DNA of 64,000 nt from a virus. Under the pieces are notes generated by a model. It worked only from the letters and a program-made list of their open reading frames with translations, made no database searches and was not told the DNA's origin. This document shows positions 3,611 through 34,394 of the stretch, piece by piece. The DNA is taken from positions 1 to 64,000 of the IMG/VR virus record IMGVR_UViG_3300049149_000013. One strand, written 5' to 3'. The first letter of the stretch is position 1, and every line of letters begins with the position of its first letter. Both the position numbers and the translations under genes were made by a program.

Positions 3611-3648
3611 GCTTTGCTGTAATCTTCCGCTCCCGGGGACGGTCTCTA

Positions 3649-3657
3649 TGCTATACT
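3649..3657 (+). promoter_or_regulatory. Extended -10 promoter element TGCTATACT
   Basis: TG-N-TATACT lies in the 275-bp gap before the glycosyltransferase-sulfotransferase gene. No good -35 is visible at 16-18 bp, which is tolerable for an extended -10. It overlaps partial inverted repeats (CTCTATG/CATAGAG and GGGGAC/GTCCCC). A start near 3664 would give a ~220-nt leader. Confidence 0.4.
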
Positions 3658-3682
3658 TACCCCATACGGTCCCCATAGAGGG

Positions 3683-3701
3683 CCGATTCCCCGGGAATCG
3701 G
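3683..3701. promoter_or_regulatory. Perfect 9-bp inverted repeat, operator-like
   Basis: CCGATTCCC and GGGAATCGG flank a single C. The loop is too short for an RNA hairpin, so a dimeric protein-binding site is more likely. It lies just downstream of the candidate -10 of the accessory cassette. Confidence 0.35.
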
Positions 3702-3815
3702 GGAACCCCCCGAGAATCCGCCTTAAACGTCGCGCAGGGCTGCATACGAGGCCGCAGGTGCGCCGATCTGCCGCCCCCCGGTACCCTACTAGCGACCCCC
3801 CTCCCTAAAACCGCG

Positions 3816-3837
3816 CCTAGGGCTTCCTATTGCGTTG
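3816..3837. repeat. 22-bp intergenic element, copy A
   Basis: Matches 48859-48880 with one mismatch in 22 bp; the shared core GCTTCCTATTGCGTTG (3822-3837) is identical. Both copies have a GGTACC site 25-40 bp upstream and sit in intergenic DNA ahead of plus-strand genes. Function unknown; a phage-specific promoter or replication/packaging signal are the options considered. Confidence 0.6.
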
Positions 3838-3885
3838 TAGCTAGCTGCCTAGCTTACGCTTTGGCTTCGGATCGAAAAGGAACTG

Positions 3886-5208
3886 ATGATGAGAATAGCG
3901 TTCTGCACTACTTGTAAAGGGCGGGCACATCACGTAGCACGGACGTTACCAATCAACTTAGCTGACAACGACGATTACCAGGATTGCGTATTCGTCATCG
4001 TAGATTATGGTAGTCCCGATGGACTGATCGACTACCTGCGGAAGAACCACGAGAAAGAACTTCAGAGTAACAGGGTGGTAGTCTACTCTGCTCCCAACGC
4101 GGGTCCGTTCCGAATGGCGCATGCGAAGAATATGGCTCACCGTCTTGGGATTCACGAAGGAGCCAAGATCCTCTGCAACCTGGATGCCGATAATATGACC
4201 GGCAAAGGATTTGCCAAGTATATAGCCAACCACTTTACGATGGAAGGTATGGATACCTTTCTCTGGGCGCGAATGATTCCCGGCGTATTCGCCCGGGGTA
4301 TCTCAGGGAGGATTGTAGTGCCTGCGCAGATGTTCCTTAAGGCAGGTGGCTATAACGAGCAGTTTGAGAACTGGGGTCCGGACGACAAGGATTTTAACGC
4401 GCGGCTCTCCCGTATGAACTACCGACCCTTTGAGATTCCCGGGGACTATCTGAAAGGCATCAAGCACGATGATAGAATCCGGTTCAAGGAGTATCCGCAC
4501 GTTCGCCCGCCGCCGGATAGCTCGCAGGAACAACCCATCGATCCCTGCGCGCCGAATATCTCCAATAACGGCAACATCGGTTGCGGCGTGGTTAAGAGCC
4601 TCTGGCATCGTATGACCTTGCCGCTCGGGCATATCGCCACGCGGGTTTTCGGCATTGGCATGCACAAGACCGGCACGACCTCGCTATGCGCAGCGCTAAC
4701 CATGCTCGGCATGGATTGCTCGCACTGGACGACGGCTCGCCATGCCCGTACGATCTGGGAACAGATGAGAGCCGAGGGTCATTCGGTAGAGCTGGAACGC
4801 TACTACGCGGCCACCGATCTTCCCATCTCCCTGCTATACAAGGAACTCGACCGAGCTTACCCGGGATCGAAATTCATCCTAACCCTGAGACCCGAAGAAC
4901 AATGGCTAGACAGCATAGAGGCTCACTTTAGTGAACGTAACCCGTACCGCAATACTTGGGATATTGATTGTTTTACTCATCGCGTACATCGTGAACTCTA
5001 CGGACGAAAGACCTTCGACCGACAAACCATGCACGATGCTTACATCAAACATAATCGCGAAGTGTTAGATTACTTTCGCAACCGGCCTCACGATCTACTG
5101 TTAGTTCATATGGATAGCAACAGTATTTGGCCTAAGCTTTGCGGTTTCCTAGGCGCGGTATGCCCGGGAGATCCCTACCCTCGGGAGAATATGACACGCG
5201 CTAGCTAA
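3886..5208 (+). CDS. Glycosyltransferase family 2 / sulfotransferase fusion protein
   Basis: 440 residues, two domains. Residues ~1-235 are a GT-A-type glycosyltransferase: IAFCTTCKGR start, NLDADN metal-binding motif (98-103) and the acceptor-side GPDDKDF (164-170). Residues ~250-440 are a P-loop sulfotransferase with the 5'-phosphosulfate loop GIGMHKTGTTSL (256-267) and a 3'-phosphate region FILTLRPEEQW (330-340), as in Sulfotransfer_4-type enzymes using PAPS. The fusion would add a sugar and sulfate it, or act on one glycan in two steps; the acceptor is unknown. No signal peptide or membrane segment is seen, so it is cytoplasmic. It lies just upstream of two exported PEP-CTERM proteins, which suggests action on the host envelope or its glycans. 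Confidence 0.85.
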   Translation: MMRIAFCTTCKGRAHHVARTLPINLADNDDYQDCVFVIVDYGSPDGLIDYLRKNHEKELQSNRVVVYSAPNAGPFRMAHAKNMAHRLGIHEGAKILCNLDADNMTGKGFAKYIANHFTMEGMDTFLWARMIPGVFARGISGRIVVPAQMFLKAGGYNEQFENWGPDDKDFNARLSRMNYRPFEIPGDYLKGIKHDDRIRFKEYPHVRPPPDSSQEQPIDPCAPNISNNGNIGCGVVKSLWHRMTLPLGHIATRVFGIGMHKTGTTSLCAALTMLGMDCSHWTTARHARTIWEQMRAEGHSVELERYYAATDLPISLLYKELDRAYPGSKFILTLRPEEQWLDSIEAHFSERNPYRNTWDIDCFTHRVHRELYGRKTFDRQTMHDAYIKHNREVLDYFRNRPHDLLLVHMDSNSIWPKLCGFLGAVCPGDPYPRENMTRAS

Positions 5209-5225
5209 CAGCTCGCTCCCGGGCG

Positions 5226-5231
5226 TATACT
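5226..5231 (+). promoter_or_regulatory. Candidate -10 box TATACT before the PEP-CTERM genes
   Basis: TATACT lies 33 bp upstream of the first PEP-CTERM ATG, right after CGCTCCCGGG, a string also found upstream of the TATACT at 3652. No clear -35. A start near 5238 would give a ~25-nt leader carrying the small RBS hairpin. Confidence 0.35.
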
Positions 5232-5240
5232 AGGCGCGGA

Positions 5241-5254
5241 CCTTAGCGCTAAGG
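5241..5254 (+). promoter_or_regulatory. Palindrome overlapping the ribosome-binding site of the first PEP-CTERM gene
   Basis: CCTTAGCGCTAAGG is a perfect 14-bp palindrome (stem CCTTA/TAAGG, loop GCGC). Its 3' arm provides AAGG of the Shine-Dalgarno AAGGAGG (5251-5257), six bases before the ATG at 5264. It could fold over the RBS or bind a dimeric repressor. The SD contains a CsrA-type AGGA core, and a csrA gene is present at 54.6 kb; that link is inference only. Confidence 0.4.
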
Positions 5255-5263
5255 AGGCCCAAG

Positions 5264-5506
5264 ATGATAATGAAGAAGATCTTATGGATGATCCCTGCGT
5301 TAGCACTCGCATCCCCAGTGCTAGCAACGGGTGTTTACGAAGCCCACAATAAGTGGCCGGGGATGGAACGTGAACACAATCATGGAGATTGTGATCATAA
5401 GGAATGCAAAGCGGGTGATCCGGTTGGCGTTCCTGAACCAGGCACGGCAGCACTGTTAGTGCTTGGGATCGGCGGTATCATTGCGGCAACACGCCGCAGG
5501 AGGTAA
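5264..5506 (+). CDS. Short exported PEP-CTERM protein
   Basis: 80 residues. A Sec signal peptide (MKKILWMIPALALASPVLA, ending near residue 21) is followed by only ~35 mature residues rich in His/Asp/Cys (HNHGDCDHKEC, 38-48), a possible metal-binding patch. A textbook PEP-CTERM tail ends it: VPEPG (56-60), one transmembrane helix, and ATRRRR. In bacteria this tail is recognised by an exosortase, which cleaves it and delivers the protein to the outer surface or extracellular matrix. No exosortase is seen in this window, so the host enzyme is presumed. A strong SD AAGGAGG sits 6 bases before the ATG. Confidence 0.85.
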   Translation: MIMKKILWMIPALALASPVLATGVYEAHNKWPGMEREHNHGDCDHKECKAGDPVGVPEPGTAALLVLGIGGIIAATRRRR

Positions 5507-5512
5507 GGGCGA

Positions 5513-6163
5513 ATGAATAAGTTGGTAGTCCTGGCGGCTGCTGCAATGATGGGAACTGCCGCCGCCCATGCTACGGAGGTGTTATCGTTCGGCCAGAGCG
5601 TCGCTGGTTCCGCGCCTATTACAGGTACGGAATCCGGAGGCGTCACGACCATAATGGCGAACGCTGCACCTATCTCCTTGACGTCCTGTCTCTTGTGCTC
5701 GACGATCATCGGCTCTGAGACCCTGACCCTTGATGCGACGAGTGTCGGACCGGCGTTCAGCTTCCACGGCTTCGTGGTGCAGAACTTCACTGGCACTTTT
5801 GAGATTCTGTCGTCTACGGGTCAGAATATCCTTTCGGGATCGTTCAGCGATGCAACGTTTGGCGCAGGAACAAGTCTCACGCTCTCGGCATCAAATGCCT
5901 TCAATGGGGAAACGTTGACCTTCACGTCAGGCGTGATTAAATCATCGATTCTCGATCCGAAGGCAATGAGCTTGAGTCTTGCGGACGTTACTCCATTCGT
6001 AGGCACGACTGACGGATCGCTATCATCCTTCACAGGATCGATTGCGGGTACCTTTAGTGCCTCACCCCGGGTAACGGGAGTTCCAGAGCCAGGAGCGGCA
6101 TCGATGATGCTGCTTGGGCTTGCGGGAATCGGCGTTGCCGCATGGAGACGGAGACGTAAGTAA
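5513..6163 (+). CDS. PEP-CTERM sorting-domain protein
   Basis: 216 residues. Signal peptide 1-~21 (VLAAAAMMGTAAAHA), then a Ser/Thr/Gly-rich beta-type mature region of ~165 residues with one CLLC pair (59-62). The C-terminal sorting signal is VPEPG (190-194), helix ASMMLLGLAGIGVAAW, then RRRRK. Family knowledge: such proteins are exosortase substrates linked to exopolysaccharide, floc or biofilm formation. The gene starts 7 bases after the first PEP-CTERM stop with AGGAGG at the junction, so the two are probably translationally coupled. The Ser/Thr-rich middle could be glycosylated, plausibly by the upstream fusion enzyme (inference). A rho-independent terminator follows. Confidence 0.88.
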   Translation: MNKLVVLAAAAMMGTAAAHATEVLSFGQSVAGSAPITGTESGGVTTIMANAAPISLTSCLLCSTIIGSETLTLDATSVGPAFSFHGFVVQNFTGTFEILSSTGQNILSGSFSDATFGAGTSLTLSASNAFNGETLTFTSGVIKSSILDPKAMSLSLADVTPFVGTTDGSLSSFTGSIAGTFSASPRVTGVPEPGAASMMLLGLAGIGVAAWRRRRK

Positions 6164-6173
6164 TCCTGAGACT

Positions 6174-6203
6174 AGGGGCGGGCAGGAGGCCCGCCTCTTT
6201 TTT
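6174..6203 (+). terminator. Rho-independent terminator after the PEP-CTERM genes
   Basis: GGCGGGC-AGGAG-GCCCGCC is a perfect 7-bp GC stem followed by TCTTTTTT. It closes the 3.6-6.2 kb accessory cassette. Confidence 0.85.
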
Positions 6204-6221
6204 AACCTTCAGGAGATGACA

Positions 6222-6410
6222 ATGCCAATGGTTCATACACTTCTAGTCTTTCTCATCCTTATCGCAATCATCGGACTGATCCTTTGGGGAGTCGGGCAGA
6301 TCCCCGGCATCCCGCCAATCGTAAAGACCATAGCCTACGTAGTAGTCGGCGTCATCCTGTTGCTTTATCTATTGGAACTAGTAAGCGGCGGACAACTCTC
6401 GCTGAAATAA
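6222..6410 (+). CDS. Small two-TM membrane protein (Thivi_2564-like)
   Basis: 62 residues using the ATG at 6222, chosen because AGGAG (6211-6215) sits 6 bases upstream. Two hydrophobic helices (HTLLVFLILIAIIGLILW and TIAYVVVGVILLLYLL) are joined by a short GQIPGIPP turn. The size and pattern resemble the small Thivi_2564-type membrane proteins found in phages and bacteria. A holin function is possible from size and topology but not shown. It lies after a terminator and before an orphan gene. Confidence 0.55.
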   Translation: MPMVHTLLVFLILIAIIGLILWGVGQIPGIPPIVKTIAYVVVGVILLLYLLELVSGGQLSLK

Positions 6411-6705: not shown

Positions 6706-7961
6706 ACCTTAAAGCTTCCCAGCCGTTCCTTCGACCGGTTAATCGATTGATTGATATTACGCATTGCTCCAGGTAGCGGTATGCGCGGCCTGCGAGCACC
6801 AGGGAACCCCGCATGTTGCCCTGCCATCGGTCCGCTTATTAGGCTTTGCAGGGGTGAAGGCGGACGCATCATTTGCCCGGGCATCTGGCCTGGCAGCGTC
6901 GGCATTCCTCCGGGGGGCGATATCCTACCGCCTCGTGCCCTCATCCCAGCGCGCATTCCCTGGAACGGCATCGGACGCATCATGCCAGGATGCACCATCG
7001 GTGGGCGCATTGCCGGAGCACGCCCGATACCTCCCTGCTGCGCTGCCGCTAGTTGTGGGCCTAGCTGACTAAGCATGCCACCTGCCATCGGTGGGCGAAC
7101 GCCTCCAGCCGCCACACCGCCCGGGCCTAGCTGGAAGGGATTACCACCCGTAACATTACCCATGCCACTAGGTCCGCCCGCAGGACCCGCATTCCATGCC
7201 CCCCCTGGACCAAATCCTTGCATCGGTCCCGCGCCTCCCGCTCCTGCCCCCATTATGCTACCTATATTACCAAATGCTCCACCACCGGATACCGGCCCCG
7301 CCTGCGGTCCACCAGGAGGAGTTGGCGTAGGCGGAGGAGACATCATTCCACCGAGTGCTCCGCCACCTCCCGGCGGCATCTGTACGGGTCCACTAAACCC
7401 ACCGCGCATGCTAGGTGGCAAGTTATTATTCTGCTGAATAAGCGAAGACCAGAGACTAGGCGGAATGCCCGTAGGTGGGGGTTGATTCGGATCTGCGTAC
7501 CCGAAGCTCCCCGGACCCTGCGGCACCGCTGTACCTGCTCCACCAGCTCCTCCGAACAAACCTCCAAAGCCCGTAGCACCAGGATTAGCATTCTTAAGGT
7601 TAGCGATCATGCTAGCCAGATCGGGTGTAGCCTGCTGAGGAGGCTTATATCCTGGTTGAGCCATAGGAGACCTAGGATCGAGCGTACTGCCGAAATACCC
7701 AGGACTACCGGGACCGGATGTCGGGAAGCCCCCGCCACCAGTAGGAGGTTGATTTAGAGCGGTACCTGCGGCTCCGAGACCGGCAGCCATACCGCCTAAC
7801 TGATACTTCTTGCGGCCTTTCATTGCGCGACTTAACATAGCCGATCCTTTATCAGCTTGGTTGAATTCTGACGATACTTTCTGTGGTGGGCAGGATTCGT
7901 AGCCAGCACCATGCGAGCATGCTGCCATAAACCGTGCCTGCTCCGGTGTCTTGCTAGGCAT
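6702..7961 (-). CDS. Gly/Pro-rich putative internal virion protein
   Basis: 419 residues. The N-terminus holds a motif common in phage virion-associated proteins, TPEQARFMAACSHG followed by EFNQADKG. The rest is very rich in Gly, Pro, Met and Ala, with GG tags such as ARGGRI. This is the last gene of the late operon. Low complexity prevents a functional call; a minor or internal virion protein is inferred from position and composition. Confidence 0.6.
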   Translation of the reverse strand: MPSKTPEQARFMAACSHGAGYESCPPQKVSSEFNQADKGSAMLSRAMKGRKKYQLGGMAAGLGAAGTALNQPPTGGGGFPTSGPGSPGYFGSTLDPRSPMAQPGYKPPQQATPDLASMIANLKNANPGATGFGGLFGGAGGAGTAVPQGPGSFGYADPNQPPPTGIPPSLWSSLIQQNNNLPPSMRGGFSGPVQMPPGGGGALGGMMSPPPTPTPPGGPQAGPVSGGGAFGNIGSIMGAGAGGAGPMQGFGPGGAWNAGPAGGPSGMGNVTGGNPFQLGPGGVAAGGVRPPMAGGMLSQLGPQLAAAQQGGIGRAPAMRPPMVHPGMMRPMPFQGMRAGMRARGGRISPPGGMPTLPGQMPGQMMRPPSPLQSLISGPMAGQHAGFPGARRPRIPLPGAMRNINQSINRSKERLGSFKV

Positions 7962-8641
7962 TACTTTAAATCCTTCGGGTCAAAAACCGCGAGTGAGTTT
8001 AGATCATTCCTACCTGCTAGTTCGTCAGTTCCCATAAAATCCCGGTAATAGGCTGAATCATAACCTAACCCTTGCAAACGTTCTTGCATCTTCAGCAACT
8101 CGGGCGTACTCAGATTAATACCCATTGTAATCGATCTACGGGGCAGACGGTCTATGTAAGTAAACCCTCGACTTGGTTCCCATTCAGGATCAGCAGCCAG
8201 GAACTTAGCTAGATTCTGTCCACTAGGCGCGAAGCGATCCGCGCGTTCCATTACGGCTTGTCGTAGCTGAGGATTATCCGAAAGCGCTGTCGAGAGCATA
8301 TCATGGTAAAGGTCCCTTCCCATATTCCCAGGCAAGAGGGAAAGTGGATTTGATACATTAGGGTTAACCTCGAACACCTTATAACCTCGACCCCGATCCG
8401 CCGCTATCGCCGCTGCATGCTCGGGATGCTCCGCCAAATGCACAGCTCCAGGCAGAAGTGTGCCTCGTTCTCCAGGTATAATTCTAGTAAAGGTAGTAGG
8501 ATCTGTTTTTCCCCCATGATACCATGGATGGCTCTGGATCTCCTCTAGTAACTGAGCTAGTCTCTCAGCTACGTTTACCTCGCCTCCGCCCGCGAAGTAA
8601 CCCCCTAGCAGGACCACCCTGCGCCATTGCCGGTTCCTCAT
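7961..8641 (-). CDS. Putative ADP-ribosyltransferase (ART-PolyVal-like) domain protein
   Basis: 226 residues. After an N-terminal FAGGGEVNVAERLAQL tag (also present in the upstream 1491-residue protein), the protein shows WYHGG (~38-42), PGAVHLAEHPEHAA, a YKVFEVNPNVSNPL strand, and a C-terminal YDSAYYRD...SLAVFDPKDLK. These match the layout of ART domains found in phage polyvalent proteins, which may ADP-ribosylate host targets after injection. It overlaps the upstream gene by 77 bases in another frame. Domains of this kind are usually fused to the large protein, so a frameshifted fusion is possible. Catalytic residues were not verified. Confidence 0.5.
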   Translation of the reverse strand: MRNRQWRRVVLLGGYFAGGGEVNVAERLAQLLEEIQSHPWYHGGKTDPTTFTRIIPGERGTLLPGAVHLAEHPEHAAAIAADRGRGYKVFEVNPNVSNPLSLLPGNMGRDLYHDMLSTALSDNPQLRQAVMERADRFAPSGQNLAKFLAADPEWEPSRGFTYIDRLPRRSITMGINLSTPELLKMQERLQGLGYDSAYYRDFMGTDELAGRNDLNSLAVFDPKDLK

Positions 8642-11600
8642 CCTCAGGCTGCGGCTGATACTCCTTCTGCATCCTGCCCAGATCCCGATTCGTCATCCTG
8701 CCCATAGCCTGCATAGCTATCTCACGACCCAGGGGAGCTTCCATCTCCTCCTGAGCCTCCGCTACATCGTCCGAGGTAAAGTGAATCGGCGCAGACGGAC
8801 CGAAATAATTCTCATGCTTACCTATCAGCTCCTTCAGGCGCTCAAGCAGATCCCGATGAGCGTCTGCTCGCTGCTGAGTCTCTATCTCGTCATCGGACAT
8901 TGCAGGCTCGGCGGGCGGAGGAGGTTCCCCCGGCTGACCTCCAATAGTCGGATGTTGCAGGGTGTGAAGTCTATTCCTCGTAGCTTCCCAGTCTATCCCA
9001 CCACCCTCAGCCATCCCTCCCCCGCCCCCATCATCTACTCCCGAGGTTCCCGGCACGGTCGTATAGAGCGCAGGCGAACCATACATGTGTTTAAAGTGAC
9101 CGCCTCTCGCCTGACCCGGAGGCTTATCATAGATGCTAGTCCAATTGCGGCTCTGAATATCCTTAGCATGCTCTGCCATCTCAGGACTGGTCTCGGCTAC
9201 CTGGGTAAAGATATCCTGAGGCTTTGCTTCTGTTGCCCAGCCCCGGTTAAGGACATCGGCAGCATGGGCCTTCATCTCCGGGCTTGAGGTAAGTTTCTCC
9301 CAGAGCTGGGCGAGCCTCTCAGCAAGGCCGATCTCTCCACCCCCTGCCATGCGGGGAGGCGGCGCGCTCTGCCCCATAAACATTCGACGCTGGAGCAACT
9401 GATCTAAGAAGTTTTCCTCGGTCTCAGGAGGTGGGGTCTGCCCGCCTTCCGCCATGCCTGCCGTTACCGGACTTCCGCCCGGGAAGTGAACTGTCTGACC
9501 TTCATCTAGGCCACGCAGATGCCGTTGATAGGCTTCGTCGCCAATCTCCTTCTGGATATCCTTGCCGACGCTGGTATCTTCCGGTTCAACCGAGTTCGGG
9601 TCCGGTCCCTGATGCCTGGCATGTTCGATCATTTGTTCGGGACGCATCCGGCCTCCACCGCCTCCACCCCTAAGTCGGTCGAGCGCATCCCCTGCCGAGC
9701 CTATCAGCGCGTTAAGGCTACCCCATTCGGTAGCCATTGCCGGCCAACTACGCAACGGGGAAGCTCCTAGCCAACCCATTAAATGAGAACCTGCACCTTC
9801 GGCAGGAAGGCCCGGGATCGGGATAACCGCTGAAGGAGCTTCCTCAAAGAAATGTTGCTTAAACGTATGGGCTGGCGGTAATCCTACGCTACGTTGGATC
9901 TTCCCCTCAAGAGCCTCGGCCCGCTCACCTGCCGCTTTCGATCCAGGCATCATCGAGGAGATTGGATGACCCTTCGATTCGTCACCTAGGTTAGCTCCCA
10001 GCAATCTAGCCGGTAGTGTGGCATATCCCTCGAATAGCCGAGCGAGGGCATGAGGTGTCGAGTATAGCCTATCGAGTATCAGGGGAGGTGTAGACCCCGG
10101 ACCGGGATGGAGAATATCCCCTCCTGCCACCAGATGACCTTGCGGATCAGTACCATAAACCTGTTTTGCCAACGAGGTAACGGCACGCGCCGCAAGTTCC
10201 CCGGGAGGATTATCGGGGTCATCGTACTTAGCTGGATCTGTTCCAGCTGCCTTCATCTCCGCTGCCGCCTCGGCCTCTCTCTCAGCAATTGATCTCTGAA
10301 CTCTATTTCTCAAAGCCGTAAGCGATGATTCGTAATCCGGCTGATAGTTCGCCGGGATACCCTCGTTACCCTTAATCGTTGGTCCGGTAATAAGGTCTGA
10401 CAGGGAAGGACCACCTTCCTGGAAATGCTTGCGGGTCATCGGATTAGAGGTATAGGTTGGCTTCTGCTCCTCCTCGGATGCCTGCGCCAGCATATACTCC
10501 TGCATTTTCTTCAGAAGTTCCTTATGAGCTTCCTGTTCTTCGCCAGGTACTTGCCTCTCACTCTCAACTAGAACATTCTCAAGACTCGGCTGATCCCCTG
10601 TTGTCGAACCACCCTCGGCATGCTCGGTTACGGCAGGAGTCTTACCGGCTGCGGCCATACGGTCGTAGATTAGATCCTCAGGGTTAATACCGGACTGCTG
10701 CAACTGATTGCCTACCTGGCGGATATGGGCGGCATCGGCATCCTGGATTTCCCCGACCGGCGTACGCATGAAATCATGGTACCTTTCGAGGAAGTGCTCA
10801 ATAAGCTCGGAGAGGTTCACTGCGGTCTTAACCTCACCGCCCCCGGCCATGCCATGCTGCTGCCGTTCGTCCTCGCGCGAGACGAGGTAATCAGTGCTAT
10901 ACCCTAAGTGATGAAGGGCATGTCTTAGATGGTCCACTGGACCTCCGTGCTTCCAGACCGGTACGCCTGCTGCCTTAACGCGCGCTAAGTCATCTGGATT
11001 AGTCATATCAATTGCATTCTCAAATGTCTTTTTACGAAGTGGGTTCTGTTCAGGAGGCGCTTTATAAGTTTGCTCGTACCAGTCCCAGAGCGGACGCATC
11101 GACTCACCGGCCTCGCGGGATGCTTGCTCCCAGTTATAGTGCATATTCTGGTAAGCACGGGAACGCTGCATATCCGCCCATGCCTGCTGATTCTTCGGCT
11201 CATCTTCTACCCAGTTATCCTCCTCATCGTAGTGGCCACTCTCCCGAGGACGGTACTGCATTTCTACATCATTAATTTCTTTGGCATGTTTGCGCATATC
11301 CGCAATAGCCTTATAAAACTTATCCTCCATCGTTCCTTCTGCGGCGGGAACGTCTTCACCAGTTTCGGGATTAAAGGCACCTAATCCCATCTCCTCACGT
11401 TTCTCTACTGGAACCTTATCAACCATATGCTGCCAGAGCCGTTCGTACTTGCCTGGAACCTCGTACCTATTCCATTCATCGCCCTCGGCGTTTAGAACCT
11501 GGCGGATATAGTTATCAAGTGTCGGGTGGGCCCAATCGGGCACGTCCGCTAGTTCCTGTCCCCTAAAGTCGCCTATCTCCCGGGTAAAGGGTCGAGGAGG

Positions 11601-13040
11601 CCAGTTTAGATTCGGTTCTGGCTTCGCATGCAATGTAACGTCCATCGGGCGGTATGGTAACTGAAAGCGCTGTGCTAGATCCTTAAGTACCGAGGGATAA
11701 CTGATATTATAGTTATAGTTCTGCCCCGTAGCTTGATCAGCACTAAAGCGACGGCCATAGAACGCATTCTGGTCGTTACCGCTCGCAAGTCCTAGTCCCA
11801 TATCACCGGTATGCGCAGCGTCGGCCAATGCTTTGCGCATTTCCAGACCGACAAACCCCTGAGTAGTCTTAAACGGTGTATCGGGGATTTTCGCTCTAAG
11901 CCGCGCCACCTCATTCTTCAAGGCATTTAATCTCGCCTGAAGATTCGGATCAGTATTGAATTGTAGATTTCCTTCCTGATCGAAATAAGGGGTCTGTGCC
12001 CGACGCATAACCGCATTCGGTTCACGGAAAAGCTCCATCCCCTCAATCTCTCTGATCCGAGCTAGATCCGCAGGAGTTTGGTAACCGACCTTAGTAGCCT
12101 TCGACGCCTCACGGAGCTTTTGAAGTTCCTGCCAACGAGGGTCCTCAGCGAGTATATTCCCGCCTCGGGCACCCTCCGTTCCAAACCGGAGTGCATCGGT
12201 AATAACGTCACGCGCCCAAGGACCGGCCTGAAAGCCTTCACGATCATCGAACATATTCGTCATCAGGTCCTGGGCCAGATCCTGCATGCGAGTAAGATTC
12301 TCAGGGGTAGGAGCCCACCCTCCTGGCTTAATCGCTTTCTGGTGCCGGTCGGATTGGATCTCGTCTATCACCCTCATCGTGCGGCCTTCGGGTGTACCGG
12401 TAGCACCCATACCGGTGCTCTCGCCCCAGAGTGGCAGACGGTTGCTGCGGTTCCAGGAGATATCCCGATCCGAGAAGTGGCTTTGATACTGACCGAAGTC
12501 CGGCGAGCGTGTCACGTCGAGCTGGTAAGCCTTAGCTCCATAAGGCGACGCTGGATTACCCGGCCCACTATCACCCCGCTCTGCATGGGAATACTCGGAA
12601 TACTGAGGGCTTCCTGCCGTAACACGCCGCTGACCGCCTGCACCGGTAGTAGAAACACCTGCCTGGGCTAGTTGCCTCTGCTCGCGGGTCGTACCAGCTT
12701 GGGCAAGATCAGAACCGAGCTGTACGTTCAGGTTCGGAGCATTCTGCATATAGAGCTGGAGAATATCAGCTCGACTTACCTTCTGATTAGGCTTCAGTGT
12801 CTGGAGATAGGGAACAATCTTTGAATAATCAAGCTCCTCCTTCTTCAGAGGAAAATCTACACCGGCTCGGCTTGCGATCTGCCCGGGCTTAAGATAGCCA
12901 GCCCACTCCTGAGCAGTCATCGCCTCGCGGGGCGAATTATCGATCAGACCCTTTAGGGTAGAGAACATCCCATAGCGCGGGACCTTGCCGGTCAGATACT
13001 CGGCAAGATGCTCAAGCTCGGGTAAATTGATCTTAGGCAT
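8565..13040 (-). CDS. Very large internal virion/polyvalent-type protein (1491 aa)
   Basis: The start is taken at ATG 13040 (MPKINLPELEHL), just after the upstream stop, rather than the GTG/ATG at 13103. The N-terminal ~700 residues are complex sequence (YLKPGQIASRAGVDF, IDEIQSDRHQK) reminiscent of the large polyvalent proteins that phages inject. The C-terminal half is a string of linkers with repeated short tags: MAGGGEV, AEGG, FQEGG, MAEGGQ, MAGGGEI, MAEGGG, MAQGG. Two tags introduce amphipathic AERLAQL segments. Probable role: ejected virion protein. Precise domains need profile searches. Confidence 0.6.
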   Translation of the reverse strand: MPKINLPELEHLAEYLTGKVPRYGMFSTLKGLIDNSPREAMTAQEWAGYLKPGQIASRAGVDFPLKKEELDYSKIVPYLQTLKPNQKVSRADILQLYMQNAPNLNVQLGSDLAQAGTTREQRQLAQAGVSTTGAGGQRRVTAGSPQYSEYSHAERGDSGPGNPASPYGAKAYQLDVTRSPDFGQYQSHFSDRDISWNRSNRLPLWGESTGMGATGTPEGRTMRVIDEIQSDRHQKAIKPGGWAPTPENLTRMQDLAQDLMTNMFDDREGFQAGPWARDVITDALRFGTEGARGGNILAEDPRWQELQKLREASKATKVGYQTPADLARIREIEGMELFREPNAVMRRAQTPYFDQEGNLQFNTDPNLQARLNALKNEVARLRAKIPDTPFKTTQGFVGLEMRKALADAAHTGDMGLGLASGNDQNAFYGRRFSADQATGQNYNYNISYPSVLKDLAQRFQLPYRPMDVTLHAKPEPNLNWPPRPFTREIGDFRGQELADVPDWAHPTLDNYIRQVLNAEGDEWNRYEVPGKYERLWQHMVDKVPVEKREEMGLGAFNPETGEDVPAAEGTMEDKFYKAIADMRKHAKEINDVEMQYRPRESGHYDEEDNWVEDEPKNQQAWADMQRSRAYQNMHYNWEQASREAGESMRPLWDWYEQTYKAPPEQNPLRKKTFENAIDMTNPDDLARVKAAGVPVWKHGGPVDHLRHALHHLGYSTDYLVSREDERQQHGMAGGGEVKTAVNLSELIEHFLERYHDFMRTPVGEIQDADAAHIRQVGNQLQQSGINPEDLIYDRMAAAGKTPAVTEHAEGGSTTGDQPSLENVLVESERQVPGEEQEAHKELLKKMQEYMLAQASEEEQKPTYTSNPMTRKHFQEGGPSLSDLITGPTIKGNEGIPANYQPDYESSLTALRNRVQRSIAEREAEAAAEMKAAGTDPAKYDDPDNPPGELAARAVTSLAKQVYGTDPQGHLVAGGDILHPGPGSTPPLILDRLYSTPHALARLFEGYATLPARLLGANLGDESKGHPISSMMPGSKAAGERAEALEGKIQRSVGLPPAHTFKQHFFEEAPSAVIPIPGLPAEGAGSHLMGWLGASPLRSWPAMATEWGSLNALIGSAGDALDRLRGGGGGGRMRPEQMIEHARHQGPDPNSVEPEDTSVGKDIQKEIGDEAYQRHLRGLDEGQTVHFPGGSPVTAGMAEGGQTPPPETEENFLDQLLQRRMFMGQSAPPPRMAGGGEIGLAERLAQLWEKLTSSPEMKAHAADVLNRGWATEAKPQDIFTQVAETSPEMAEHAKDIQSRNWTSIYDKPPGQARGGHFKHMYGSPALYTTVPGTSGVDDGGGGGMAEGGGIDWEATRNRLHTLQHPTIGGQPGEPPPPAEPAMSDDEIETQQRADAHRDLLERLKELIGKHENYFGPSAPIHFTSDDVAEAQEEMEAPLGREIAMQAMGRMTNRDLGRMQKEYQPQPEDEEPAMAQGGPARGLLRGRRRGKRS

Positions 13041-13041
13041 C

Positions 13042-16000
13042 TTACTGACCCTGCTGCGGAGTAGGCGTAAGCGCTGCCGCTCCACCGCCTGCCGTAGCTC
13101 CACCGATTAAGCCAGAGACGTTCTTCTGGCTCCGTAACGCATCAGCTGTCTGCTGGAGTCTGCTCATCTTCTCCCTAGCATGAGGATCGTTCGCCATAGT
13201 TCCCATCGTCTCGGAAATCTCACCTGCCTTGCCCGGGCGCATTAGCTGACCTCGGACCATCTGACCTATCGAGAGCGGCTGCTGGCTAATATTCAAACCT
13301 GCCTCTCCCGCTCTGATCAAACGTCGGCCGGTTCCAAAGACCTCTGCCTGGCGGGTAAGAGAATCGATAAACCTCTGACCCTCCGCTGGATTATCGAAGA
13401 TCGCCATAATCTTCGCCTTCAGGTTCGGGTTAGCTACTACAGCCATCGCGGTATTACGGTTAGCTCCCATATTGCCAATCTTCTGCATAATGCCTTCGGC
13501 TACACCGGTGCGGTACGCATCCCGGGCACTCCAGTCGAGCTTGCCCATCAGTTGCTTGACTTCCTCAGGAGTCAGCTTATCGAAGGTCTCCCGGCCACCG
13601 CGCAGTGCATCCATAATATCGAGGTCGCCCGCGTACTGATCGCGAGCCTCCCGGTAGGGACTGCGGCCATTCGGCAGCGTAGTAGCCTGATCGAGTTCCT
13701 TTACCAGGTTAGAGCGCATATCACGCAGGATACGACCCTGCGGCGACGCCTGGTAGTTAATGCCGGTACCCTCCTCCTGGAGAATCATCTGATCGAGTGC
13801 CCGCTTGACTTCATCAAGGTATTGCAGGGTAGGATTCTGCACCATGCCTGCTACGTCTGGGCGACCGATAGGTATCATCCTATCCTGCATCATACGAAAG
13901 GCCCGCGCCGACGCTTCTTGACCGCTAGGAGTATTCAGGATCTGGGAGAGCGTCTGCGTCTTGACACTTGGGAATTGTGAAAATGCCTGATCATAAAGCG
14001 GCGCGGCTTTAGTATAGAGAGCATTCCTCAGCTCCTCGGTCTTGGCGTAGTAATCATCGGGCTTAAGACCCCGGTTGACTATATCGCCAGTCCCACCTGT
14101 CATACCTGCCTCGCGCTCCTGCAAGGCTCCGAGCAAAGCATTCGACTCTGGCACATCCTTGCGTATCGCTGCCGAGGTCAATCCAACCGAGCGTGGCCCC
14201 GCAGCCTCGGCTACCGTTGACGGTATGCCCATACGAGCGTCTTTCGCCAGAATATCAGCAATTTCCCTGACGCCTCCTTCTGGTCTATCGAGATTCATCG
14301 CCTCAAGCGACTTACGCACTCCTGGCCCCGCAGAACGGGTAAGCTCGTTGGTAAGCCTCAGGAGAGGAGCGGAAGCACCACGACCGGCACCCGCAAGCAG
14401 TGGGCCAAGCATCGCACCGCTGGCTGCTCCCGGGAGAAAGTCATCGCCACCTCCCATCTCGCCTGATATCCCGCCGGTCAGTGCGCCTACTCCCGAGGCA
14501 GTCAGGTGAGGATGACGAGCCATAAAGCGTGCTGCCGCAGCTGGCCTGCGCAGGGCTGCCAGACCTGCTGCCGTAGTAGCGCCAGCCCCCAGAGCTTCCC
14601 CTAGTAAGTTTTCAGCCGGGGAATCCGGATCTTCTGGACGCCCCGCAGCCTTAAGTGATAATCCCTGGATAAGAGCATTCAGAGAGTTCCTTATCTCGGG
14701 ATCAGCCTGCTCGGGCTGTCCACCTTCCTGCATACCTCTTTTAAGCCTATCTAATTGCTCCTTGAAAGTTTGTTCAAACTGTTCCTCATAGCGTTGAAGT
14801 TCGGTATCTTCTTCCCGGCGTTTCTGGTCGGCTTGACGAGCCTCATAATCTGAAAGATGCTCAACCGTCTGTTCGTTAGGATCGTAAACCCTAGATAGGT
14901 TCTTGGAAGGCCCCTGTTCCTCTACCTCACCGCCTTCCGCCATACCTCCGGCAGGCTGCGTATCCGAAGGCTGAGGATGATAGCTAACGTCTGGCTCCTG
15001 GGTCCCGGGAGGTCCCGCACCTGGCGCACCTACTTCCTCGGTCTGAACCTGGGGATTCTGATTCCTAAAGTAATCCTTCCAGTCCATCCGCTTCGGATTT
15101 AGAGGCTTCAGTCCATTCTTCAGGAATGGCGCACTATGGTCGAAGATCGGGTTATCATTAATATACGTATCCCAAGCCTGAGTAGCACCCGCCAATGTTC
15201 GGTGGAGTCCGAAATATGCCTGTTCAAACTGGTGCCGTTGCAGATTATTATTCAGGGTAATGCGTAGAGCCTCGGCAATGGCATCGTTGGTAGCCTTGGG
15301 CTTATCCGTACCGATCATTGCTGACTGGAAGAGACCGAGGTCGCGGTTTGTAACGCGCCCGAAGCCTTTCGAGGGAATAGCCTGCGCAACAGTATCGGCA
15401 GCGAGCTTATCCATCGTCTGAATGCTAGACTTCAGGTGAGCTACGATTGAAGGAGGCCAGATATTAATACCACCCTCAGTACCTACCTCGGCACCGGCAC
15501 CGTGCGGCCCCGCGTGTATCCCTCCGATACGTACTGGAGCGATCATAGGACCTGTAGCCGTCGTGGTATTTAACTGCTGAAACTCATCAAGGTTCCGCAG
15601 AGCTTTCATCATCTGCTCATCGTTCGCACCGTAGTCAGCAAACTGCTTATCAGCGGCTTTCTGTTCGCTACTATAGAAGTTCTGGCGTTGCTTAGTTGAC
15701 ATATGCACAACATCGGGCATGCCAACGGGATTAAACGGCACGCCCGCCAGATTCGCATTCTCAAGCTTCTCCTCAGGGGTTAGTTGGGTCTCATCGATAC
15801 CTGCCCGCGCCTTAGCCTCCGCAATGGCCGTATCGTTCAACTGCTTAACCAATGCACGGTAGGCAGGGCTAAATCCACTACCTGGATCCCCGGGAACTAG
15901 ATAAGCCCGTGGACCGAGCTGATCTAGCGCTATCTTACCGAAGCTGGACTGAGGCTTCATCCCCGCCTGTTGCGCAGGGGTAGTAGCCATACGACCGAGA

Positions 16001-16584
16001 GCGGTCATAGCCGACTTGCCCAGCTCGGTCTCTTGCCGTTGCATCATCTCCAGGAGCTTGCGCTTACCCTCGGCGGTCTGAGTATCGATACCCCTGATCT
16101 TCTCGGCTAGGTCAGCACCACCGAGAGTCTGGAGGTATTGCATGATTGCCGTGCGCTGTTGTGCCGCCTGAGCTGCCTCCTCTTGAGCGATCTGTCCTAA
16201 CTGAGACTGAAGCGCTCCATACATGCCTACGCCCGGGACCGGCTTCGCTGCCGCAGCCTGGATCTGGAGAGCCTTCTCATGCTCGCTCGGAACACCATAC
16301 TTCCAGTAGTTTTGCAAAAGAATCTGCTGGGCATTTCTAAGTGCTGCCTTGGAAGCCTCGGCGCTGCTCTCTATGTCCTTACCGATCTTCTCGGTTTCAC
16401 CCTCATGCTTGCCGATACGAGACAGGATCTTGCGAGCTTCGTCCTGAGCTTCCTTGGTCGTAGTCGCCTGCGTAGCGCCAGCCGGGATAACGTCGGGATC
16501 ACCCTCACCCCGAATACTCTCAAGTGCCGAGCGTACGTCATCGGGCGATGCCGTCTGGGAAACAATGTCTTCTGGTGTTGACAT
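13042..16584 (-). CDS. Large internal virion protein (1180 aa)
   Basis: The N-terminal ~200 residues are helical and Gln/Ala-rich (KILSRIGKHEGETEKIGKDI). The middle holds two GG tags (GMAEGGEV, GMQEGGQ) near ~545-630. A Gly-rich hydrophobic stretch follows at ~690-740 (SGVGALTGGISGEMGGG), which could insert in membranes during ejection. The C-terminal ~400 residues (KAAPLYDQAF, YLDEVKRALDQ, YREARDQYAGD) resemble a helical region frequent in podovirus internal virion proteins. It abuts the neighbouring genes with 1-2 base spacing. Role inferred: DNA ejection or periplasm-spanning channel. Confidence 0.6.
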   Translation of the reverse strand: MSTPEDIVSQTASPDDVRSALESIRGEGDPDVIPAGATQATTTKEAQDEARKILSRIGKHEGETEKIGKDIESSAEASKAALRNAQQILLQNYWKYGVPSEHEKALQIQAAAAKPVPGVGMYGALQSQLGQIAQEEAAQAAQQRTAIMQYLQTLGGADLAEKIRGIDTQTAEGKRKLLEMMQRQETELGKSAMTALGRMATTPAQQAGMKPQSSFGKIALDQLGPRAYLVPGDPGSGFSPAYRALVKQLNDTAIAEAKARAGIDETQLTPEEKLENANLAGVPFNPVGMPDVVHMSTKQRQNFYSSEQKAADKQFADYGANDEQMMKALRNLDEFQQLNTTTATGPMIAPVRIGGIHAGPHGAGAEVGTEGGINIWPPSIVAHLKSSIQTMDKLAADTVAQAIPSKGFGRVTNRDLGLFQSAMIGTDKPKATNDAIAEALRITLNNNLQRHQFEQAYFGLHRTLAGATQAWDTYINDNPIFDHSAPFLKNGLKPLNPKRMDWKDYFRNQNPQVQTEEVGAPGAGPPGTQEPDVSYHPQPSDTQPAGGMAEGGEVEEQGPSKNLSRVYDPNEQTVEHLSDYEARQADQKRREEDTELQRYEEQFEQTFKEQLDRLKRGMQEGGQPEQADPEIRNSLNALIQGLSLKAAGRPEDPDSPAENLLGEALGAGATTAAGLAALRRPAAAARFMARHPHLTASGVGALTGGISGEMGGGDDFLPGAASGAMLGPLLAGAGRGASAPLLRLTNELTRSAGPGVRKSLEAMNLDRPEGGVREIADILAKDARMGIPSTVAEAAGPRSVGLTSAAIRKDVPESNALLGALQEREAGMTGGTGDIVNRGLKPDDYYAKTEELRNALYTKAAPLYDQAFSQFPSVKTQTLSQILNTPSGQEASARAFRMMQDRMIPIGRPDVAGMVQNPTLQYLDEVKRALDQMILQEEGTGINYQASPQGRILRDMRSNLVKELDQATTLPNGRSPYREARDQYAGDLDIMDALRGGRETFDKLTPEEVKQLMGKLDWSARDAYRTGVAEGIMQKIGNMGANRNTAMAVVANPNLKAKIMAIFDNPAEGQRFIDSLTRQAEVFGTGRRLIRAGEAGLNISQQPLSIGQMVRGQLMRPGKAGEISETMGTMANDPHAREKMSRLQQTADALRSQKNVSGLIGGATAGGGAAALTPTPQQGQ

Positions 16585-33688: not shown

Positions 33689-34204
33689 TTAGATATAGGC
33701 AACCATTTCAAGTGCCTTATCTTCAGGCACCTTACCCTTTAGTTCCATATCGTTGAAGAGAACGAACAGAGCTTTCCCATCGTCATGATCGGCATCGACC
33801 CACCATCTGTCTCCACCGTACTTGGGCACGCGCACGTAATCGCCAACCTGGCACCACTGACCCTCCGGCCATGGCTTCAAAGTTTCGCGATTACAAAAGC
33901 AGACCGGACCAAAGGCGATAACTTTCGCCACTTGCATGTTCCATTGGTCTGTTTCGCGTGATTCCTCAACCAGCGCGATGCCACCCGCTGAGTGCGTCGG
34001 GGGCGTCTTAAGCTGAACGAGTACGTCGGAGCCGAAGGGTACGAGACCAGGATCAGCTTTTGGGAAAGCCTGTTCCAAGGAATCGTACTTGTACGCAGCT
34101 TTCCTGAAAATTCCCTCGGTCTTACCTCCTACTGTGGCAAGACGGTCGCGGCTAACGCCTCGGTCGCGAGGTGGTTCCAGTTTGTGCGGCAAGCTTCGAT
34201 CCAT
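33689..34204 (-). CDS. GroES-like co-chaperonin
   Basis: 171 residues from ATG 34204, with GAGGAG 7 bases upstream (a TTG 6 bases earlier is less likely). Residues ~51-165 follow the GroES fold: GLVPFGSDVLVQLK, a mobile-loop-like THSAGGIAL (70-78), AKVIAFGP, VGDYVRVPKYGG, ALFVLFNDMELKG. The ~50-residue N-terminal extension is basic and unlike host GroES. The role would be to cap host GroEL for folding capsid or other large phage proteins, as T4 gp31 does. Its place in the head operon fits. Confidence 0.72.
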   Translation of the reverse strand: MDRSLPHKLEPPRDRGVSRDRLATVGGKTEGIFRKAAYKYDSLEQAFPKADPGLVPFGSDVLVQLKTPPTHSAGGIALVEESRETDQWNMQVAKVIAFGPVCFCNRETLKPWPEGQWCQVGDYVRVPKYGGDRWWVDADHDDGKALFVLFNDMELKGKVPEDKALEMVAYI

Positions 34205-34394
34205 TCTCAAACTCCTCTTGTGCGGTTATCTCATCATTTAACAAGCGTTCGGCCATTTCTAAGCCTTGAACTACGCCGCAGGCTAATCCATAACCGTACG
34301 CTGATTGGCTCCTCTTATGCGGACTCAGTGCTTCAAGTGCATATTGCACTCTCAGCTCTTTCAGCTGGGACAGGAACCTATCTGGGGTGGGCAT
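34152..34394 (-). CDS. Hypothetical protein
   Basis: 80 residues, helical (RFLSQLKELRVQYALEAL, GLACGVVQGLEMAERLL). It overlaps the GroES-like gene start by 53 bases. Similar short helical proteins occur in phage head operons, but no function is known to me. Confidence 0.5.
   Translation of the reverse strand: MPTPDRFLSQLKELRVQYALEALSPHKRSQSAYGYGLACGVVQGLEMAERLLNDEITAQEEFENGSKLAAQTGTTSRPRR

Follow-up and report, generated by a model that had tools for sequence, protein, structure and literature searches.

Why does a phage carry two tandem genes whose products end in the sorting signal of a bacterial exosortase, and what might it gain from them? We addressed this question in a window of 64,000 nucleotides (positions 1-64000 in a virus record of 66,646 bp), for which a first-pass annotation had described two such genes, with Sec signals, phage genes on both sides and a closing terminator. 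The products, PEP1 and PEP2, are authentic PEP-CTERM proteins and the genome is that of a true phage; the proteins may be used to remodel the surface of the infected cell.

Two PEP-CTERM proteins encoded in tandem

Both genes are real open reading frames, each with its own Shine-Dalgarno sequence (Table 1), and both products score above the curated cut-offs of TIGR02595 (16 bits) and PF07589 (20.7 bits; 25.5 bits for PEP1). The tails are thus recognised as PEP-CTERM domains, and the possibility raised in the annotation that profiles would score them as ordinary transmembrane anchors falls away. TIGR02595 matches the whole record at exactly two places, the PEP1 and PEP2 tails, which end no more than two residues from the stop codon (0-1 residues after the domain in PEP1, 0-2 in PEP2), in keeping with the extreme C-terminal position that defines the class, where fewer than 10 residues follow the domain in 87%. 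The matches are not due to chance, because none of 50 related viral records has a tail match over the cut-off and because homologues of PEP2 match it over its full length and share its tail. By inspection, both N-termini look like the annotated Sec signals: PEP1 begins with KK, a hydrophobic core and a VLA/T junction, and PEP2 with NK, a core and AHA/T. In a hydropathy scan, neither protein has a transmembrane segment in the region that separates the signal from the tail.

Table 1. Features of the window, with their positions, strands and supporting evidence.
Feature	Position	Strand	Evidence or remark
Variable cargo slot	3611..6215	.	from VRR-NUC-like gene to 97-aa gene / opposed structural operon
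Glycosyltransferase + sulfotransferase fusion, 440 aa	3886..5208	+	PF17784 119 bits, PF02709 27 bits, both above cut-off
PEP1 Shine-Dalgarno AAGGAGG	5251..5257	+	sequence
PEP1, 80-aa PEP-CTERM protein	5264..5506	+	TIGR02595, PF07589 over cut-off
PEP1 putative Sec signal peptide MIMKKILWMIPALALASPVLA	5264..5326	+	sequence, hydropathy
PEP1 tail VPEPGTAALLVLGIGGIIAATRRRR	5429..5503	+	TIGR02595 27 bits
PEP2 Shine-Dalgarno AGGAGG	5498..5503	+	overlaps last Arg codons of PEP1
PEP2, 216-aa PEP-CTERM protein	5513..6163	+	PF07589 29.1 bits; homologues in viral contigs
PEP2 putative Sec signal peptide MNKLVVLAAAAMMGTAAAHA	5513..5572	+	sequence
PEP2 tail VPEPGAASMMLLGLAGIGVAAWRRRRK	6080..6160	+	TIGR02595 25.2 bits
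Terminator-like hairpin, then T-run	6174..6198	+	1 found vs 2.7 expected by chance
62-aa protein, two hydrophobic segments	6222..6410	+	hydropathy; adjoins cassette
Proteins with MAEGGE-like motifs	8565-16584, 7961-8641	-	relatives' proteins carry such copies too

Serine and threonine make up 32% of PEP2, as against 12% in the other phage proteins, and lysine and arginine only 1.8%; such Ser/Thr enrichment with few basic residues is typical of PEP-CTERM proteins, though not obligatory. The mature PEP1 ectodomain, of only ~34 residues, is rich in His, Asp and Glu, has two Cys and no Ser/Thr enrichment, and yielded no homologue. Within it (5327-5428), HNHGDCDHKEC resembles a small metal-binding stretch. 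A fold model of PEP2 built from nine sequences has an all-beta ectodomain (pLDDT 58) and a helix at residues 193-215 in the tail, while the single-sequence fold was uninformative (pLDDT 38). The former found no significant fold match, its top, weak and non-significant ones being glucanase- and lectin-like, and the profile search recognised no enzyme or binding domain in PEP1 or PEP2. Assignment of PEP2 to the FxDxF family of PEP-CTERM proteins (NF038126) was rejected: residues 70-213 align at 45.9 bits, below the 50-bit cut-off, and the ectodomain alone has no match.

A search of the phage record with PF09721 found no exosortase gene, and sorting must therefore be done by the host. The sigma-54 -24/-12 box of the bacterial PEP-CTERM regulon (PrsKR) does not occur anywhere in the window at 9 or more of 12 positions; in a phage, a promoter of its own would be expected instead.

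A closed phage genome with a variable cargo slot

The window is phage DNA. Among its genes we recognised those for the large (TerL) and small terminase, capsid, tail fibre, primase, helicase, dCMP deaminase, thymidylate synthase and thymidylate kinase, and the annotated phage genes do lie on both sides of the PEP pair. A 7-bp sequence is common to the two ends of the record. When these are joined, the Walker A motif of a RecA-like gene is restored in frame, and the encoded protein aligns with five relatives straight through the junction; on this ground, the virus genome is closed. The major capsid protein (MCP) is 76% identical to that of Caulobacter phage RW and up to 92% identical to those of IMG/VR contigs, and the Caulobacter phages RW and GB2A and HTVC023P-like phages share the backbone of the window and its two opposed operons. 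In RW, the plus and minus operons meet at ~29.9 kb with no cargo between them, whereas the window has cargo at this point. A tRNA search of the window found none, and there is no integrase among the ~50 window proteins scanned. A host assignment from MCP in genome bins gave a mixed result and was dropped. Elsewhere in the window, proteins of 1512, 1180 and 226 aa contain several copies of MAEGGE-, MAGGGE- or MQEGGQ-like motifs, which may mark where large polyproteins are linked or cleaved, and a GroES-like co-chaperonin (phrog_3188; 33689-34210, minus strand) lies inside the structural module.

The PEP genes occupy a variable slot at the end of the plus-strand replication operon, whose last gene is VRR-NUC-like. 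Around it, five related records keep the order RecA-like, DUF669, helicase, 118-aa and VRR-NUC genes (plus strand) and a 419-aa structural gene (minus strand). The flanks of the slot are kept in order in G001, G002 and G006, G007 and G008 retain the VRR and 419-aa genes, and the 97-aa gene is recognised between these two in three of the five relatives. Slot content differs in each of the five, and none has a PEP-CTERM gene there. The slot of the window is filled by a glycosyltransferase-sulfotransferase fusion, PEP1, PEP2 and a 62-aa membrane protein, with no break in GC at the cassette. The fusion, immediately upstream of PEP1 among the cargo genes and missing in the five relatives, contains a PAPS-loop-like GMHKTGTTSL; its single INPHARED relative, MT837976, is 35% identical over the glycosyltransferase half. 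The 62-aa protein reaches 25 bits against NF041949, below the cut-off of 33. As for the closing terminator, the hairpin and T-run are present as annotated, but shuffled sequence yields as many such hairpins.

A virus-borne PEP2 family that moves between backbones

The ectodomain and tail of PEP2 align with proteins of eleven viral contigs at 35-44% identity (E 1e-16 to 1e-20), three further contigs giving weaker matches, and over the aligned ectodomain PEP2 is 30-46% identical to six other family members. A profile of the ectodomain scores E 4e-60 for the window, which is itself a row of the model, and E 1e-56 to 1e-78 in members outside it, which served as the positive control. PF07589 is passed by the three family members tested, and the VPEP and GL positions of the tail are invariant in all nine aligned members. 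Pairwise dN/dS, where not saturated, is 0.09-0.42, and the PEP2 family is under purifying selection.

At least three backbones carry the family, that of the window being the third. In the other two, the gene belongs to the head and packaging modules. One of them (L244, L299/G830, G814) has portal (phrog_156) on one side of the PEP gene and either MCP (phrog_334) or TerL on the other; the second (L242, L219, L204), marked by MCP phrog_1328 and portal phrog_1216, has the PEP gene either adjoining TerL or, where the contig ends, following portal and scaffold. The search suggested in the annotation, for PEP-CTERM genes near terminase or portal in phage databases, thus turned up such loci in IMG/VR. 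Compared by tblastx with G814, L242 and L204, the window has nothing in common with them but PEP2. G814 and L242, on different backbones, have in common a broken stretch of ~3.4 kb surrounding the PEP gene and PEP genes that are 80% identical, whereas those of G814 and L244, on the same backbone, are 68% identical; because identity is higher across backbones than within one, the cassette moves between backbones. In L299 (3181-5787), a DNA N6/N4 methyltransferase adjoins the PEP2-family gene, and in L236, a protein with the same start as this methyltransferase precedes the family gene.

When entire PEP2 or its full alignment was searched against bacterial genomes, most matches were driven by the tail, and a profile of the ectodomain alone was used instead. 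At E 1e-4 it found the family in none of 321 gammaproteobacterial and none of 337 alphaproteobacterial genomes (658 in all). These are samples of two classes, and elsewhere the weaker single-sequence searches applied; 149 genomes from the phylum to which an Acidobacteriaceae bin belongs gave no match in a whole-protein search. Since the genomes searched are samples, absence from bacteria is provisional. No relative turned up in INPHARED, nor in PLSDB except for a weak match to PEP2 at E 0.08. Direct scans for PEP2 with back-translated 8-mers, which are too specific, gave no matches.

More widely in IMG/VR, a motif scan, whose pattern had been checked on the two tails of the window and on tails from bacteria, returned at least 120 stretches; 67 of the 80 loci read had a proper C-terminal VPEP, transmembrane and basic tail, and TerL was present in 22 of 50 records carrying genuine tails. 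Some of these loci may be provirus flanks, while several PEP-CTERM genes lie plainly within phage modules. In G818 (L334 9880-15469), the gene of a different PEP-CTERM protein has DNA polymerase A on one side and an adenylosuccinate synthetase on the other, and this phage may therefore make modified purines. In G828 (the record of L248; C1:13647-15365), a TerL match (E 7e-60) has 8 in-frame TGA and 1 TAA, which could reflect stop-codon recoding or decay.

Probable sorting by the host and a putative surface cassette

PEP1 and PEP2 are very probably true phage-encoded substrates of an exosortase. From their sequences we infer signal cleavage, exosortase processing, surface location and function as follows. 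The signal peptide would carry each protein through Sec, by the logic set out for the bacterial system (PMC1569441), the tail would anchor it so that PEP faces the periplasm, and an EpsH-type exosortase of the host would cut it and pass it to the surface or the exopolysaccharide. There, PEP2 would expose its Ser/Thr-rich beta domain, the small, charged PEP1 would alter the surface too, and, together with the adjacent enzyme transferring sugar and sulfate, the cassette would change the cell surface. The likeliest gain would be that competing phages adsorb, or progeny re-adsorb, less readily. The coat, exclusion and biofilm roles proposed in the first-pass annotation are plausible. As the best overall explanation, we give an even chance to substrates of the host exosortase that remodel the infected-cell surface, probably for superinfection exclusion; for the more specific statement that this cassette remodels the host surface with an exclusion benefit, our confidence falls slightly short of even.

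T5 Llp and Ltp of phage TP-J34 are phage morons with envelope-directed superinfection exclusion, and both are lipoproteins. PEP1 and PEP2 would resemble them as small, exported, envelope-anchored, accessory and phage-mobile proteins, but carry an exosortase sorting signal in place of a lipid anchor. With the bacterial PEP-CTERM/EpsH system (Haft 2006, PMC1569441) the pair shares the C-terminal TIGR02595 tail, a signal-like N-terminus, a Ser/Thr-rich ectodomain without an inner transmembrane segment (in PEP2, as is the pattern of secreted PEP-CTERM proteins; PMC1569441) and a glycosyltransferase nearby. Unlike that system, it is encoded by a phage within phage modules, with no exosortase, no sigma-54 box and a PEP2 ectodomain family not found in the sampled bacteria.

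Surface remodelling has to be weighed against other readings of the same genes. That they are passenger host genes or, as the annotation had allowed, the product of a chimeric assembly would suit their lack in close relatives; yet the record closes in frame, phage genes stand in conserved order on both sides and virus-borne homologues are under purifying selection. With syntenic flanks and no GC break at the cassette, a host-DNA chimera is unlikely, and this reading as a whole is highly improbable. The proteins might instead be plain inner-membrane or periplasmic anchors on which no exosortase acts, as the lack of an exosortase in the phage record would permit, and no control genome, among them that of C. 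vibrioides, the host of the nearest cultured phages, matches TIGR02595. Against such anchors, which we consider improbable, the PEP motif itself, and not just the transmembrane-Arg part, is invariant in all nine family members, and the curated profiles are passed.

Other readings keep the exosortase and change the purpose. As decoys, abundant phage tails would jam the host enzyme and the ectodomain would matter little; PEP1, nearly only signal and tail around its 34-aa ectodomain, and the presence of two substrates in tandem would agree with this, but the PEP2 ectodomain is conserved across backbones, with invariant positions and the low dN/dS given above. Mere jamming fits poorly with an ectodomain kept under purifying selection, and we rate decoys as quite improbable. 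A modifier of the matrix, by which displayed proteins loosen or bind the exopolysaccharide of floc or biofilm and so help progeny to disperse or to find new hosts, is unlikely but the least so of these alternatives. PEP-CTERM proteins are required to keep exopolysaccharide on Zoogloea cells (PMC9012009), the neighbour is a glycosyltransferase-sulfotransferase, and the weak fold matches are glucanase- or lectin-like; these are not significant, however, and neither protein has a recognised enzyme or binding domain.

Searches of the open-access literature turned up no paper that describes PEP-CTERM proteins as phage genes, in line with the annotated lack of a described phage function, and no assay linking any PEP-CTERM protein to phage exclusion was found in the literature. 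PEP-CTERM proteins and exported phage cargo are each known; the PEP2 family in phages appears, provisionally, to be previously undescribed. Its occurrence in several unrelated viruses and in no sampled bacteria suggests that viruses may use host sorting to repaint the cell. We tentatively propose that tailed phages whose hosts bear an exosortase have in common a mobile class of PEP-CTERM proteins, specific to viruses, with which they may hijack the exosortase and display a viral coat for exclusion by way of a sorting signal and not a lipid anchor. Few of the exosortase substrates, which are many and evolve fast, have a known function, and a family carried as phage cargo gives a direct handle on them. 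Exosortase-positive bacteria also become a host clue for orphan viral contigs, and, if the proposal is true, phages would have a new route to alter the surfaces of flocs and biofilms.
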